Shown here piece by piece: positions 26,953 to 32,859 of a stretch of DNA of 49,010 nt. The notes beneath the pieces were generated by a model. The model searched no databases, was not told the DNA's origin, and was given only the letters and a program-made list of their open reading frames with translations. The translations under genes and the position numbers were made by a program. The DNA lies in contig NZ_JAODNW010000024.1 in assembly GCF_025398255.1 (NCBI RefSeq), positions 1 through 49,010 on the forward strand, given 5' to 3'. Position 1 is the first letter of the stretch; each line of letters begins with the position of its first letter. This DNA comes from Chelativorans intermedius (GTDB lineage: Bacteria; Pseudomonadota; Alphaproteobacteria; Rhizobiales; Rhizobiaceae).

Positions 26953-27660
26953 TCAGCGAAGCAGGACCCCGGCGATGGGATAGACGCGCTCCGCCCCCAG
27001 CATGTAGGCGGTCAGGCGTTCCCGGCAGAAGAGCCCGGAGAAGGCGGGAGCCAGCAGGTTGAGCGTGCCGGTCAGGCTGCCGAAGGCCGGCATGACGAGG
27101 CGCGAGCCATCGCTGGCAAAGCATGCGCGCCGCACGGAGCGGCCGCGCCGCACGATGCGCGCGCCCGGGTGCAGGTGGCCGGCCACCTCGCCCTCCGCCG
27201 GCCCCGGCGTGGGCGCGTGCCGGAAGACGAGCCCGCCCAGCGCGAGCGTTTCCACCCACTGACCGGCAAGCCCCTCCGGCGGCGCGGGGTCGTGATTGCC
27301 GGCAATCCAGTACCATGCGCGCCCGGCCATCATTTCCGAAAGGCGCGCGCGGAAGGCTTCGGGCATCCGCCCGGCACCGCCTGTATCGTGAAAGCTGTCG
27401 CCGAGGCTCACCACGACCGCCGGCCGGTGCCGCCGGACAGCGTCGGCCAGCCGGTCGAGCGTCGCCGCCGTGTCGTAAGGCGGCAGCATCGAGCCGCGCC
27501 GCGCATAGGAAGAACCCTTCTCCAGATGCAGGTCGGAGACGACAAGCAGGCTCTCGGAGGGCAGGAACAGCGCCCCGGAGGGGTCGCACACCGCGCGCAG
27601 GCCGGCGAGGCTGATCTCCACGCCCGCCCGGGCCTCCGTTCCCCTCTCCATCACCTTCAT
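26953..27660 (-). CDS. pdeM: Ligase-associated DNA repair phosphoesterase PdeM
   Basis: This is a calcineurin-like metallophosphoesterase of the ligase-associated DNA damage response. The 235-residue protein shows the metal-binding series DLHLEKG, LGDSFHD, GNHDPAPP and GHLHPGAR in order. The SYARRGSMLPPYD segment after the first motif is typical of PdeM. Its ATG overlaps the end of the helicase gene by 4 nt, so the two are translated together from the SOS-boxed spacer. It presumably acts as a nuclease or end-processing enzyme beside the helicase; the biochemical role is not settled. Confidence 0.93.
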   Translation of the reverse strand: MKVMERGTEARAGVEISLAGLRAVCDPSGALFLPSESLLVVSDLHLEKGSSYARRGSMLPPYDTAATLDRLADAVRRHRPAVVVSLGDSFHDTGGAGRMPEAFRARLSEMMAGRAWYWIAGNHDPAPPEGLAGQWVETLALGGLVFRHAPTPGPAEGEVAGHLHPGARIVRRGRSVRRACFASDGSRLVMPAFGSLTGTLNLLAPAFSGLFCRERLTAYMLGAERVYPIAGVLLR

Positions 27661-30170
27661 GCGCTGCCCATGGCCTCCTCGATGAGGGTTTCCGCCGCCT
27701 CGCGAAGCAGGCTTTCGCTTGCCGCGCCCGGCACCGGCTCCTTGCCGATCTCCAGCATCACCGGCACGGCCAGCGGCGAAATGCGTTCGAGATGCTTATG
27801 CACGATTCGGCCGCGGATGCGCGACAGCATTTCCCCCAGCCGGCCGATGTCGAGCAGGCCCGTGGCCGCGTCGTTCCACGTCGCCTGCAGCAGGATGTGG
27901 TCGGGCTCGTGGGCGCGCAGCACGTCATAGATGAGGTCCGCGGACACCGTCACCTGCCGTCCCGTCTTCTCCTGCCCCGGATGGCGTTTCTCCACCAGGC
28001 CTGAGATGACGGCGCAGTTGCGGAAGGTGCGTTTGAGCAGCCAGCTGTCGGCCAGCCACGCTTCCAGGTCGTCGCCCAGCATGTCCTCGTCGAACAGCCG
28101 GTCGAGCGACAGCGCCCCGCCGCCGATCATGTTGCCCATGTCCTCCAGCGCCCACACCGCCAGCGCGTAGTCGGTGGCCACGAAGCCGAGCGGACGGGCA
28201 CCCGCGCGCTCCAGCCGGCGCGTCAGCAACATGCCCAGCGTCTGGTGCGCCAGCCGTCCCTCGAAGGGATAGGCCACCAGATAGTGGCGGCTGGCGCGCG
28301 GAAAGGTCTCCACCAGCAGGTCCTGCCGGCCCGGCAGAACGGATTTGTTCTTCTGGATGCCGAGCCATTCGGCCACCGGCTCCGGCAGCGCCTTCCAGCG
28401 CGCCGGATCGGCCAGCATGGCGCGCACCTCGCCGGCCAGATAGGTGGACAGGGGGAACTTGCCCCCCGCATAGGAGGGAACCATGGCATCCTGTCCGGCA
28501 GCGGACGTGACGTAGCATTCGTTCTCGCGGATGCCCTCGAAGCGCAGGGTCCGACCGGAAAACAGGAAGGTGTCCCCCGGCGCCAGCGTCTCCAGGAAGT
28601 ATTCCTCCACCTTGCCCAGCACCATGCCGCCGCGAAAGGTGCCGCCGCGGCGGCGCACCAGCCGCACGCTCAGCATCGGCGCCTCGACGATGGTGCCGAT
28701 ATTGAGCCGGTATTGCTGTGCAAAGCGCGGGTGCGAGATGCGCCACCGCCCGTCCTTCATGCGGCGAATGCGGGCATAGCGCTCGTAGGTCTTGAGCGCG
28801 TAGCCGCCCGTGGCCACAAACTCCACGACGCGCGAGAAGGTGGCGGCATCGAGCCCGGCATAGGGCGCAGCACTCCTCACCTCCTCGAAGAAGGCCGCCT
28901 CGTCGAAGGGCCCCGCGCAGGCCCGGCCGAGCACATGCTGCGCCAGCACGTCGAGCGCGCCCTTCCCGAGGGGCGGCGTGTCCTGCGCACCCAGATAGTT
29001 GGCCTCCAGCGCCGCGCGGCATTCCATGACCTCGAAGCGGTTGGCCGGCACCAGGATCGCCCGGCTCGGCTCGTCCATGCGATGGTTGGCGCGGCCGATG
29101 CGCTGGGCAAGCCGGCTCGCCCCCTTGGGCGCGCCCACATGCACCACCAGGTCCACATCGCCCCAGTCGATGCCCAGATCCAGCGTCGAGGTGGCGACGA
29201 TGGCCTTCAGGCTGTTGGTCTGCATCGCCTTTTCCACCTTTCGCCGCTGCCCCGCGTCAAGCGAGCCGTGATGCAGCGCAATGGGCAGGTTGTCCTCGTT
29301 GATGTGCCAGAGATCGCGGAAGAGAAGCTCCGCCTGGCTGCGCGTGTTGACGAAGATCAGCGTCGTTCCGTGTTCTCGGATCGCTTCGTAGATGGCGGGA
29401 ATGGCATAGCGCGCCGAATGGCCGGACCAGGGCACGCGCTCCTCGGTCTCCAGAATCGTGATCTGGGGTTTTGCGCCGCCTTCGACGGTCACGATGTCGG
29501 CCATGGCGCCCGGCGGATTCTGATCCACCAGCCAGCGGCGAAGGGCCTCCGGCTCGGCCACCGTCGCCGACAGGCCGATGCTGATGAGGCCAGGCGCCAG
29601 CCGGCGCAGCCGCGCGAGCCCCAGCGCGAGAAGATGCCCGCGCTTCGAGGTGACGAGGGCGTGCAGCTCGTCCAGCACCACATATCTGAGACGCGAAAGG
29701 AAGCGCTCGGCATCGGGCGAGGCGATCAGAAGCGCAAGCTGCTCCGGCGTCGTCAGCAGGATGTCGGGCGGGTCGAGCTTCTGGCGCTGGCGCTTGTGGG
29801 CCGGCGTGTCGCCGGTGCGCGTCTCCAGCCGGATGGGAAGCCCCATCTCTTCGACCGGCCGGGCAAGATTGCGTTCGATGTCCACGGCCAACGCCTTGAG
29901 CGGCGAGATGTAGAGCGTGTGGGGTCCGTGCGGTCTTGCGGGGCCTGCCGTCCCCTTTGCCGCCAGGTCGGTGAGCGAGGGCAGAAAGCCGGCGAGCGTC
30001 TTGCCCGCCCCGGTCGGCGCGATGAGAAGCACCGAACGGCCCGCCCGCGTGCGCGCCAGCAGCTCCAGCTGGTGGGCGCGCGGCGTCCATCCGCGCGCGG
30101 CAAACCATTCCCCGAACGGCGCGGGCAGAAGGGTGGCGCTGTCGCCGGCGATGAGGTCGATCTGTTTCAA
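27657..30170 (-). CDS. Ligase-associated DEXH-box helicase (Lhr-like)
   Basis: This superfamily 2 DNA helicase has 837 residues. It has the Q-like HQLELLA, Walker A APTGAGKT (51-58), DELH (167-170), SLSATVAEPEALRRWL, and the second RecA domain with LIFVNTRSQAELLFR, ATSTLDLGIDWGDVD and QRIGRANHR (motif VI). A long C-terminal winged-helix/beta-barrel region typical of Lhr-core proteins follows. The only available start is a TTG at 30170. No Shine-Dalgarno precedes it, and an SOS box begins 9 nt upstream. It heads the minus-strand pair with pdeM, divergent from the exonuclease-ligase pair. Confidence 0.94.
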   Translation of the reverse strand: MKQIDLIAGDSATLLPAPFGEWFAARGWTPRAHQLELLARTRAGRSVLLIAPTGAGKTLAGFLPSLTDLAAKGTAGPARPHGPHTLYISPLKALAVDIERNLARPVEEMGLPIRLETRTGDTPAHKRQRQKLDPPDILLTTPEQLALLIASPDAERFLSRLRYVVLDELHALVTSKRGHLLALGLARLRRLAPGLISIGLSATVAEPEALRRWLVDQNPPGAMADIVTVEGGAKPQITILETEERVPWSGHSARYAIPAIYEAIREHGTTLIFVNTRSQAELLFRDLWHINEDNLPIALHHGSLDAGQRRKVEKAMQTNSLKAIVATSTLDLGIDWGDVDLVVHVGAPKGASRLAQRIGRANHRMDEPSRAILVPANRFEVMECRAALEANYLGAQDTPPLGKGALDVLAQHVLGRACAGPFDEAAFFEEVRSAAPYAGLDAATFSRVVEFVATGGYALKTYERYARIRRMKDGRWRISHPRFAQQYRLNIGTIVEAPMLSVRLVRRRGGTFRGGMVLGKVEEYFLETLAPGDTFLFSGRTLRFEGIRENECYVTSAAGQDAMVPSYAGGKFPLSTYLAGEVRAMLADPARWKALPEPVAEWLGIQKNKSVLPGRQDLLVETFPRASRHYLVAYPFEGRLAHQTLGMLLTRRLERAGARPLGFVATDYALAVWALEDMGNMIGGGALSLDRLFDEDMLGDDLEAWLADSWLLKRTFRNCAVISGLVEKRHPGQEKTGRQVTVSADLIYDVLRAHEPDHILLQATWNDAATGLLDIGRLGEMLSRIRGRIVHKHLERISPLAVPVMLEIGKEPVPGAASESLLREAAETLIEEAMGSA

Positions 30171-30178
30171 GGAAACTA

Positions 30179-30193
30179 GAACTAAAGCAGAAC
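30179..30193. promoter_or_regulatory. SOS (LexA) box between the divergent repair gene pairs
   Basis: GAACTAAAGCAGAAC is a perfect GAAC-N7-GAAC direct repeat, the LexA-binding consensus of alphaproteobacteria (GTTC-N7-GTTC on the other strand). It lies 8 nt upstream of the helicase start codon and 54 nt upstream of the exonuclease start, in the 77-nt spacer, so it could control both pairs. The consensus is established knowledge; binding here is inferred. Confidence 0.85.
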
Positions 30194-30247
30194 GCAGGCG
30201 CCGCCAAGAGGCTTCCTCTCGCGGCGAAAAGGCTTAATCTGTGCCTG

Positions 30248-31261
30248 ATGATGGATGCACGCGACCTCCTGCGTTCCCGGCCGGAAGGGCTTTACTGCCC
30301 GCGCGGCGACTTTTTCATCGACCCCGTTCGTCCCGTGGAGCGCGCGCTCGTCACCCATGGCCATGCCGATCATGCGCGCGCCGGCCATGGCGCGGTGCTG
30401 GCGACGCGTGAGACGCTCGACATCATGGCCCTGCGCTATGGCGCGGGCTTTGCCGGCGCCACGCAGGAGGCCCGGCCTGGCGAGGAGATCGCGCTCGCAG
30501 GGGTGCGTGTCCGCTTTCACCCGGCGGGTCATGTTCTGGGCTCGGCCCAGATCGCGGTGGAGGCCGAGGGGATGCGCATCGTCGTCTCCGGCGACTACAA
30601 GCGCAGCCGCGATCCCACCTGCGCCGCCTTCGAGCCGATCCCCTGCGACATCTTCATCACCGAGGCGACCTTTGCGCTGCCGGTCTTCGTGCATCCGCCG
30701 GCGGACAGGGAGATCGGCCATCTTCTGGCCTCCGTGCGCCGTTTTCCCGAGCGCACCCACATCGTCGGCGCCTATGCGCTGGGCAAGGCGCAGCGCCTCA
30801 TCGCGCTTCTGCGCGAGGCAGGCTATGAAGAGCCGGTCTACATCCACGGCGCGCTGGCCAGGCTGTGCGCCTACTACGAAAGCGCCGGCGTGGCGCTGGG
30901 CCCGTTGCTGCCGGCGACGGTGGAAGGGAGCGACGGCGCACCGCCGCCGGGTTCCATCGTTGTCGCCCCGCCGTCGGCTCTCGGCGAGCGCTGGTCGCGC
31001 CGCTTCGCAGACCCGCTCCTGGGCTTTGCCTCGGGCTGGATGCGCATCCGCCAGCGGGCGCGCCAGCGCGGCGTGGAGCTGCCGCTCATCGTCTCCGACC
31101 ACGCCGACTGGGGCGAGCTGACCGCCACCATCGGCGAGACCGGGGCAGCCGAGGTGTGGATCACCCATGGCCGGGAGGAGGCGCTGGCACGCTGGTGCGA
31201 GCTTGCCGGCATCGCCGCACGGCCGCTGCATCTGGCGGGCTACGAGGACGAGGCGGAGTAG
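30248..31261 (+). CDS. Ligase-associated DNA damage response exonuclease (MBL fold)
   Basis: This metallo-beta-lactamase/beta-CASP nuclease of the SNM1/CPSF-like group has 337 residues. The zinc motif THGHADH gives H37, H39, D41 and H42. Further motifs are HPAGHVLGSAQI, VVSGDYKR and the beta-CASP HIVGAYALGKAQRLI, ending with DHADWGEL and WITHGREEAL. Relatives are predicted to process DNA ends for the partner ligase. Two ATG codons in tandem (30248, 30251) follow with little ribosome-site signal. The TAG stop overlaps the GTG start of the ligase by 1 nt. Confidence 0.93.
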   Translation: MMDARDLLRSRPEGLYCPRGDFFIDPVRPVERALVTHGHADHARAGHGAVLATRETLDIMALRYGAGFAGATQEARPGEEIALAGVRVRFHPAGHVLGSAQIAVEAEGMRIVVSGDYKRSRDPTCAAFEPIPCDIFITEATFALPVFVHPPADREIGHLLASVRRFPERTHIVGAYALGKAQRLIALLREAGYEEPVYIHGALARLCAYYESAGVALGPLLPATVEGSDGAPPPGSIVVAPPSALGERWSRRFADPLLGFASGWMRIRQRARQRGVELPLIVSDHADWGELTATIGETGAAEVWITHGREEALARWCELAGIAARPLHLAGYEDEAE

Positions 31262-32859
31262 TGGAACGGTTCGCGGAACTTCTCGACCGGCTGGTCCTGA
31301 CGCCTGCGCGCAATGGCAAGCTCAGGCTTCTCGTGGACCATTTCTCGACCGTGCCGGACCCCGACCGTGGCTTTTGCCTGGCTGCGCTTACCGGCGGGCT
31401 GGATTTTCCCGCCGTCAAGCCGGCCATGCTGCGCGCGCTCGTCACGCAGCGGGTGGACCCGGTGCTCTTTGCCTATTCCTACGACTATGTGGGAGACCTG
31501 GCCGAGACGGTTTCGCTCGTCTGGCCGGCCAGTGGCGGGGAGGCGCGCGCGCCAGCCCTTTCGGAGGTGGTGGCGCGGCTGGCCACGGCCAGCCGGTCCG
31601 ACGCGCCGGCGGTGATGGCCGGGCTTCTCGACCAGCTTTCGCCTTCCGGCCGTTTCGCGGCAATCAAGCTCGCCACCGGCGGCCTGCGTGTCGGCGTTTC
31701 CGCCCGGCTTGCCAAGCAGGCGCTGGCGGTTTTCGGCGGGGTGGCGGTGCAGGAGATCGAAGAGCTGTGGCATGGGTTGGAGCCGCCCTATACGGGGCTG
31801 TTCGCATGGCTGGAGGGCCGGGCCGCGAAGCCCGAGAACGCCATGGCAGCACCCTTCCGCCCGGTTATGCTCGCCCACCCCGTGGCCGAGGCCGAGCTTT
31901 CGCAGCTCGACGCGAGCGCCTATGCCGCCGAATGGAAATGGGATGGCATCCGCGTGCAGGCAGTGGCGCAAGGGGGGATACGGCGGCTCTATTCGCGCAG
32001 CGGCGACGACATCTCCGCCGCCTTTCCCGACCTTGTCGGAGCGATGGAGTTTGCCGGAGCGCTGGACGGCGAATTGCTCGTCGGTGATCCAAAGGAGGGA
32101 ACCGGCACCTTCTCCGATCTGCAGCAGCGGCTGAACCGCAAGACGGTCTCGCGCGCCATGCTGGCGCGCTATCCCGTCTTCATGCGCTGCTATGACCTGC
32201 TCGTGGCGGAGGGGCGCGATGCGCGAACCCTGCCCTATGCCGAGCGCCGGGCGCTGCTTTCGGATTTCGTGGCCGCGCTGCCGGCGGCGCGCTTCGACCT
32301 TTCGCCGGAGGTGCCGTTCGCATGCTGGCGGGAGCTCGACGAGAAGCGCCGAAATCCGCCCCATCCCGTCATCGAGGGGGTGATGCTCAAGCGCCGCGAT
32401 TCGCCCTATCTCGCGGGCCGCCCCAAGGGGCCGTGGTTCAAGTGGAAGCGCGACCCCTACACGGTGGATGCGGTCCTGATGTACGCCCAGCGCGGCCATG
32501 GCAAGCGCTCCAGCTTCTACTCCGATTATACGTTCGGCGTGTGGTCGGGGCCCGCCGAGGCGCCGGTCCTCGTGCCGGTCGGCAAGGCCTATTTCGGTTT
32601 CACAGATGCGGAGCTGAAGGAAATCGACAAGTATGTGCGCGACAACACGGTGGAGCGGTTTGGCCCCGTGCGTGCCGTGCGCGCAGAGCCAGGGCGCGGA
32701 CTGGTTCTCGAGGTGGCCTTCGAGGGCCTCAACCGCTCGACGCGCCACAAGTCCGGCCTTGCCATGCGCTTTCCGCGCATCGCGCGGCTGCGGTGGGACA
32801 AGCCGCCTGGCGAGGCCGATCGCATCGAGGCGTTGAGAGCCCTGCTGCCGCCGGGCTGA
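31261..32859 (+). CDS. ATP-dependent DNA ligase of the ligase-associated repair system
   Basis: This 532-residue ligase has an N-terminal DNA-binding domain (about 1-200). The nucleotidyltransferase domain has active-site K226 in EWKWDGIR, with RLYSRSGDD, DGELLV, VFMRCYDLL, IEGVMLKRRDSPY and the FKWKRDP motif V. It ends with an OB-fold domain (GLVLEVAFEGL, RFPRIARLRWDK). It lacks Ku-associated LigD nuclease or polymerase domains. The GTG start at 31261 shares one base with the exonuclease stop, so the pair is coupled. The housekeeping NAD-dependent ligase would be elsewhere; this one fits a damage-specific role supported by the SOS box. Confidence 0.94.
   Translation: MERFAELLDRLVLTPARNGKLRLLVDHFSTVPDPDRGFCLAALTGGLDFPAVKPAMLRALVTQRVDPVLFAYSYDYVGDLAETVSLVWPASGGEARAPALSEVVARLATASRSDAPAVMAGLLDQLSPSGRFAAIKLATGGLRVGVSARLAKQALAVFGGVAVQEIEELWHGLEPPYTGLFAWLEGRAAKPENAMAAPFRPVMLAHPVAEAELSQLDASAYAAEWKWDGIRVQAVAQGGIRRLYSRSGDDISAAFPDLVGAMEFAGALDGELLVGDPKEGTGTFSDLQQRLNRKTVSRAMLARYPVFMRCYDLLVAEGRDARTLPYAERRALLSDFVAALPAARFDLSPEVPFACWRELDEKRRNPPHPVIEGVMLKRRDSPYLAGRPKGPWFKWKRDPYTVDAVLMYAQRGHGKRSSFYSDYTFGVWSGPAEAPVLVPVGKAYFGFTDAELKEIDKYVRDNTVERFGPVRAVRAEPGRGLVLEVAFEGLNRSTRHKSGLAMRFPRIARLRWDKPPGEADRIEALRALLPPG

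Follow-up and report, generated by a model that had tools for sequence, protein, structure and literature searches.

The direct repeat GTTC-N7-GTTC that precedes the ligase-associated helicase gene of Chelativorans intermedius is, in our reading, a predicted LexA operator of the helicase-pdeM operon, to which we give a probability of about 0.82. It was found in a stretch of 49,010 nucleotides that was analysed as a whole (hereafter called the window), and the reading rests mainly on the recurrence of the box upstream of the same gene in related genomes. A conserved, yet movable LexA-type box would provide a regulatory link for a gene set that is named for DNA damage, and its location tells which half of this set might be expected in the SOS response.

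The window encodes the two divergent gene pairs helicase-pdeM and exonuclease-ligase (Table 1). The earlier note on this DNA had listed all four ligase-associated genes as present, and this holds: each of the four proteins scores above its curated NCBIfam cut-off (TIGR04120-TIGR04123) and belongs to the ligase-associated repair gene set. If the helicase starts at the TTG at 30170, a spacer of 77 nt (30171-30247) separates both pairs. The first 4 nt of pdeM are shared with the end of the helicase gene, and in 65 of 75 relative loci the helicase is followed by a pdeM match. The function of the set had also been called poorly defined biochemically, which understates present knowledge. PMC7437997 describes the Lhr helicase core as an ssDNA translocase of 3'-5' polarity and the adjacent MPE as a manganese-dependent nuclease, and both activities fit a processing role.

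Table 1. Genes, LexA-type box and putative promoter elements of the ligase-associated locus (positions refer to the window).
Feature	Position	Strand	Basis
Ligase-associated DEXH helicase (Lhr-Core type)	27657..30170	-	TIGR04121, 1120 bits (cut-off 850); TTG start
pdeM, ligase-associated phosphoesterase/endonuclease	26953..27660	-	TIGR04123, 226.5 bits (cut-off 150)
Ligase-associated exonuclease	30248..31261	+	TIGR04122, 474 bits (cut-off 325)
ATP-dependent DNA ligase	31249..32859	+	TIGR04120, 807 bits (cut-off 400); GTG 31249 is the chosen start
Predicted LexA-type operator GTTC-TGCTTTA-GTTC (read towards the helicase)	30179..30193	-	Exact match; conserved in relatives; N7 spacing enriched
Putative -35-like CTTGGC, helicase promoter	30203..30208	-	Comparison with relatives
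Putative -10-like TAGTTC, helicase promoter	30179..30184	-	18 nt from CTTGGC; overlaps the second half-site
Putative exonuclease promoter core	30211..30239	+	GCTTCC 30211-30216, 17 nt, TTAATC 30234-30239

The sequence GAACTAAAGCAGAAC at 30179-30193 is the sole exact GAAC-N7-GAAC in the window and agrees with the GTTC-N7-GTTC direct repeat in 8 of 8 bases; the claim of a repeat without mismatch inside the 77-nt spacer was thus correct. Taken alone, such a 'perfect' match is weak evidence, since the whole genome contains 114 exact sites compared to 61 for the reversed control pattern, and since shuffled windows held 0.68 exact matches on average, with at least one match in 52 of 100 shuffles. 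By the same figures, an exact match was ruled out as proof of an operator. Matches with one mismatch are as frequent in the window (27) as expected by chance (27.0). An exact box somewhere in the window is consequently unremarkable; for one given 77-nt spacer, its chance is about 0.001 by simple proportion. What makes the box credible as a LexA site is its conservation in relatives.

At the level of the genus, 16 Chelativorans genomes were compared, the window's and those of 15 congeners; the helicases of seven of these 15 were identical to database records, six from Chelativorans and one from Nitratireductor aestuarii. The exact box is found in 15 of the 16 genomes, the window's included, and the sixteenth (L355) carries one half-site mismatch. 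The family sample comprised one genome per genus plus one second congener. A strong helicase match was obtained in 91 of its 101 genomes, and 85 upstream sequences (84 and the window's) were examined, with G001, G026, G034, G077, G080 and, without an N-terminal match, G087 (L041) left out and locus L099 discarded from the helicase set. All upstream sequences were scored with a 19-column matrix built from 59 family sites upstream of lexA (30) and recA (29 of 30, the incomplete locus L221 being excluded). A score of at least 6 is reached by 37 of the 85, compared to dinucleotide shuffles that gave 4.2 on average over 10 rounds and 3.45 (largest 8) over 40 rounds, a comparison which, like all shuffle comparisons given here, overstates independence because the upstream sequences are related. 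For a score of at least 12, the numbers are 20 of 85 and a shuffle mean of 0.30 (largest 3).

Beyond the family, 92 of 121 genomes of the order-level sample exceeded the cut-off, and 67 extra-family upstream sequences were examined after exclusion of three own or same-family loci. Eleven of the 67 score at least 6 (shuffle mean 2.35, largest 6), which is an excess, with most sequences lacking a box; the named loci of Bradyrhizobium (4), Rhodobacterales and Sphingomonadales showed no convincing box at the helicase. Within the alignment of boxes that stand at the window's place (class A, see below), the perfect half-site columns are circular, as rows were picked for holding GTTC-N7-GTTC. Because column conservation is thus partly circular, spacing tests independent of the matrix were made, in which 152 helicase upstream sequences (85 from the family, 67 from the order) were searched for same-strand GTTC pairs with N2 up to N20 between them. 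Pairs at N7 occur in 19 of the 152, compared to a shuffle mean of 0.95 and a maximum of 3 among 60 shuffles. The next-highest spacing is N20 with six of 152, above its neighbouring spacings, as is CTTC-N11-GTTC with seven of 152. Conservation in related genomes was one of the tests that the earlier note had named for its box, and presence in 15 of 16 genus genomes, enrichment of N7 and family upstream sequences above shuffles all speak for it. The box lies in the putative promoter of its target gene and is conserved in the orthologous promoters.

From the shared spacer it had further been proposed that one box places the whole module in the SOS response. While the box is indeed LexA-type and conserved at helicase-pdeM, this wider claim is not supported, as the box stays at the helicase with or without an adjoining exonuclease. 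A single shared LexA box that represses both divergent pairs, and thereby renders all four genes SOS-induced (helicase-pdeM control included), appears unlikely to us. The layout itself invites the idea: the spacer measures only 77 nt, the box lies 54 nt from the exonuclease ATG, and exonuclease and helicase adjoin in 7 of 16 genus genomes, the window's among them. However, in 8 of 16 a methyltransferase gene on the helicase strand lies between exonuclease and helicase, which puts more than 1 kb between box and exonuclease, and the box remains at the helicase; one further genome has no exonuclease in the examined stretch. The short spacer common to both pairs in the window is due to the absence of this intervening gene of many relatives. 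Within the genus the methyltransferase comes and goes, being present in L345, L348-L352, L356 and L035 and absent between helicase and exonuclease in L346, L347, L353, L354, L357, L358 and the window. Its label as a TPR-methyltransferase is based on TPR repeats recognised by eye, and the methyltransferase matches of the L034 homologue are below cut-offs.

The upstream sequences of the exonuclease point in the same direction. Only 10 of 81 score at least 6 (shuffle mean 2.05, largest 5), in contrast to 37 of 85 for the helicase, five of these ten are spacers common with the helicase (L068, L054, L108, L089, L031), and GTTC pairs at N7 occur in 4 of 81. A box conserved at the exonuclease in its own right is thus not a general trait in this sample, and a box common to the exonuclease as a conserved trait was ruled out by the methyltransferase-separated genomes together with the weak exonuclease excess. 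On the other hand, five unshared exonuclease upstream sequences from other genera (L041, L043, L104, L106, L087) score at least 8, while shuffles of all 81 gave a mean of 0.88 and a maximum of 3 at this threshold, and the boxes of L041, L043 and L106 lie within 30 nt of the anchor near the exonuclease start. Because they exceed the shuffles, a separate box may be present at some of the exonuclease promoters of other genera, which speaks partly against a split of the module into a controlled and an uncontrolled pair. In the window, the putative exonuclease promoter core begins 17 nt past the end of the box, so that the box lies outside of it, and direct control of exonuclease-ligase by this box seems doubtful.

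Since an E. coli-type sigma-70 scan of 30120-30300 gave no promoter match, the promoter elements of Table 1 were deduced by comparison. Of 11 aligned class A upstream sequences, 9 contain TTGGC, and CTTGGC or TTTGGC occurs within 120 nt in 41 of the 85 family sequences. At a distance of 17-20 nt from TTGGC, the hexamer seen most often in the family is TAGTTC (10 upstream sequences), and TACCTC, TAGGTC or TAGTTT takes this -10 position in other genera. In the window, the TTG start of the helicase lies 8 nt from TAGTTC. In many helicase genes of the family, as judged by eye, the start codon (GTG, TTG or ATG) likewise follows a -10-like hexamer at a distance of 6-8 nt, which suggests leaderless helicase transcripts in many family members. 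Plus-strand upstream sequences of the exonuclease display, again by eye, a TATCTT-like -10 before the ATG, to which TTAATC corresponds in the window.

Because the second half-site coincides with the -10-like TAGTTC, part of the box conservation may be promoter conservation. In its strongest form, this argument would turn the repeat into a promoter feature only, with the second GTTC as the -10 element, the first GTTC retained by descent and LexA never binding, which we consider quite improbable. It would account for the distance of 18 nt between TAGTTC and CTTGGC, for the alternative hexamers that replace TAGTTC in other genera and for the low matrix score of the window's box (see below). However, GTTC pairs stand out at N7 only.

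The arrangement of boxes in relatives also argues against a mere promoter feature. Exact boxes on either strand were detected in 15 of the 85 family upstream sequences. Eleven of them occupy the same position as in the window, between -63 and -75 relative to an anchor codon (class A), and span 10 genera; L140 has its box displaced to -173, and those of L078, L070 and L108 are on the other strand. A second type, GATC-N7-GTTC (class B), is present in 14 of the 85, 13 times at -103 to -122 and once, in L157, at -60, and it precedes the -35-like CTTGGC where this hexamer is present. Its spacing peaks at N7 as well (15 of 152 upstream sequences, no other spacing above 3), and it never accompanies an exact box: 15 family sequences contain the exact form, 14 the variant, none both and 56 neither. 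By analogy to GTAC-N7-GTTC, a likewise weakened half-site that is common at recA, class B may bind LexA. All 10 Caulobacter loci carry GTTC-N7-GTTT (class C, one mismatch) on the opposite strand, immediately ahead of the start, with scores of 14.8-19.7. Differently placed boxes of class B and high-scoring ones on the opposite strand in Caulobacter are both hard to reconcile with a repeat that is nothing but a -10 element. The same holds for class A boxes at the same place in three genomes of one genus from another family of the order (L278, L283, L286). Class A was also seen in two near-identical metagenome loci (L390, L396) of doubtful label.

The matrix scores put the window's box into perspective. 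Exact GTTC-N7-GTTC was found in 30 of 30 family lexA upstream sequences and in 10 of 30 for recA. While family lexA upstream sequences score 19.3-31.1, the window's box reaches only 6.6 and is the fifth best in the window, outscored by four other positions. One cause is the A just before the second half-site, which is a feature of class A boxes, whereas T is found there in 94% of the lexA/recA sites. The top match of the window, CTGTTCTCCTTTTGTGTGC at 20-38 with a score of 9.1, lies where the contig begins. LexA itself is encoded in the genome (G000:C1:471410-472120, over cut-off) and its gene is preceded by an exact-type box. Among about 60 of the genome's 114 exact sites that were scored with the matrix, those of lexA (30.0), dinB (25.4), an imuA-like gene (24.7, protein match below the curated cut-off) and ssb (19.9) score much higher than the box of the window.

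Other sites of the genome deserve mention in their own right. Two different ImuA-like genes (L113 and L112, both matches below the family cut-off) have LexA-type boxes scoring 24.7 and 19.8, and the one in L113 is divergent from a UvrD/PcrA-like helicase gene. Some high-scoring boxes have no obvious repair gene next to them, for example L116 (22.6) and L023 (19.8). In L020, the box GTTCTTGATTTGTTC at position 1501 (G000:C2:71095-71109; score 15.2) stands before a radical SAM-like gene, whose partial sequence falls slightly short of the cut-off for the PA0069 radical SAM family and which is a possible further SOS target. A repeated contig-end element (L018, L191, L193, L195, L200, L202, L208) carries GTTCTCTTAAYGTTC with scores of 10.9-16.0, in L018 upstream of a reading frame that starts with MRKSRFTEEQIVGILQEYAAG. 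This frame presumably resembles an IS3-family transposase, in which case a LexA-like box precedes a transposase gene.

A chance match without function is very improbable: shuffles allow for about one exact site per window, but they do not predict a box at the same place in 15 of 16 genus genomes and 10 genera in all.

On the helicase tree (FastTree; 130 of 132 rows, some of them identical, many weak forks, class cut-off 5), classes A and B are interspersed among near relatives (L126 with A, for example, stands beside L125 with B), and at least 8 changes are required to account for the presence and absence of a box. One might propose that LexA operators were gained or moved repeatedly at the helicase-pdeM promoter, in at least three geometries (in the window's family, in at least one other family of the order and in Caulobacter), with exonuclease-ligase mostly outside the SOS response. 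We hold this tentatively, at slightly less than even odds. If true, the module would consist of a DNA-processing half that is inducible by damage and a sealing half that is mostly constitutive, and it would offer a case of operator turnover that is approachable in alphaproteobacteria such as Caulobacter.

For the window, a LexA operator of helicase-pdeM would work as follows. LexA bound to the box would cover the -10 region of the helicase and keep RNA polymerase off its promoter. Upon DNA damage, active RecA would provoke self-cleavage of LexA, and helicase and PdeM would be made together, as their genes overlap by 4 nt. Since the start codon follows the -10 element after 8 nt, helicase transcription probably begins at or beside it and would yield a nearly leaderless mRNA. 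Exonuclease-ligase would use its own promoter facing the opposite way and probably escapes direct repression by the box. With no more than 2 nt between the putative -35 elements, activity at one promoter may disturb the other, and polymerase competition might even lower exonuclease transcription upon damage.

The repeat GTTC-N7-GTTC is described as the LexA site of Caulobacter and also of related bacteria in PMC12907096 and PMC9578287, and the same consensus is given in PMC4211646. Among the matches listed for open-licence papers, no title or abstract opening pointed to LexA control of the ligase-associated set in alphaproteobacteria, and the papers covered gave no account of what switches the set on. 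On this basis, it seems a fair claim that helicase-pdeM is a candidate new target of the known regulator LexA, priority relative to published regulon tables left aside. The table of PMC1839093 lists lhr of Caulobacter as CC2040, which is perhaps the helicase gene of the Caulobacter loci.

Compared to the ligase-associated set TIGR04120-TIGR04123 of many relatives, the window shows the same divergent helicase-pdeM and exonuclease-ligase pairs, but it lacks the methyltransferase gene between them and has a short common spacer instead. Compared to the alphaproteobacterial LexA regulon (lexA, recA, imuA, dinB, ssb), the box is likewise a direct repeat with 7-bp spacing within a promoter, and the same genome has LexA-type boxes before lexA, dinB, the imuA-like gene and ssb as this regulon does. 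It differs from those sites in its lower score, in the A before the second half-site and in the overlap of this half-site with a -10-like hexamer. Its target differs as well, as the ligase-associated helicase-pdeM pair was not met as a named LexA target in the portions of the literature covered. A further parallel is the mycobacterial Lhr-Nei2 operon, in which, according to PMC11323726, an Lhr-type repair helicase and its operon neighbour are induced by DNA-damaging agents; here, too, an Lhr-type helicase is encoded together with a predicted operon neighbour, albeit with another partner and in another organism.
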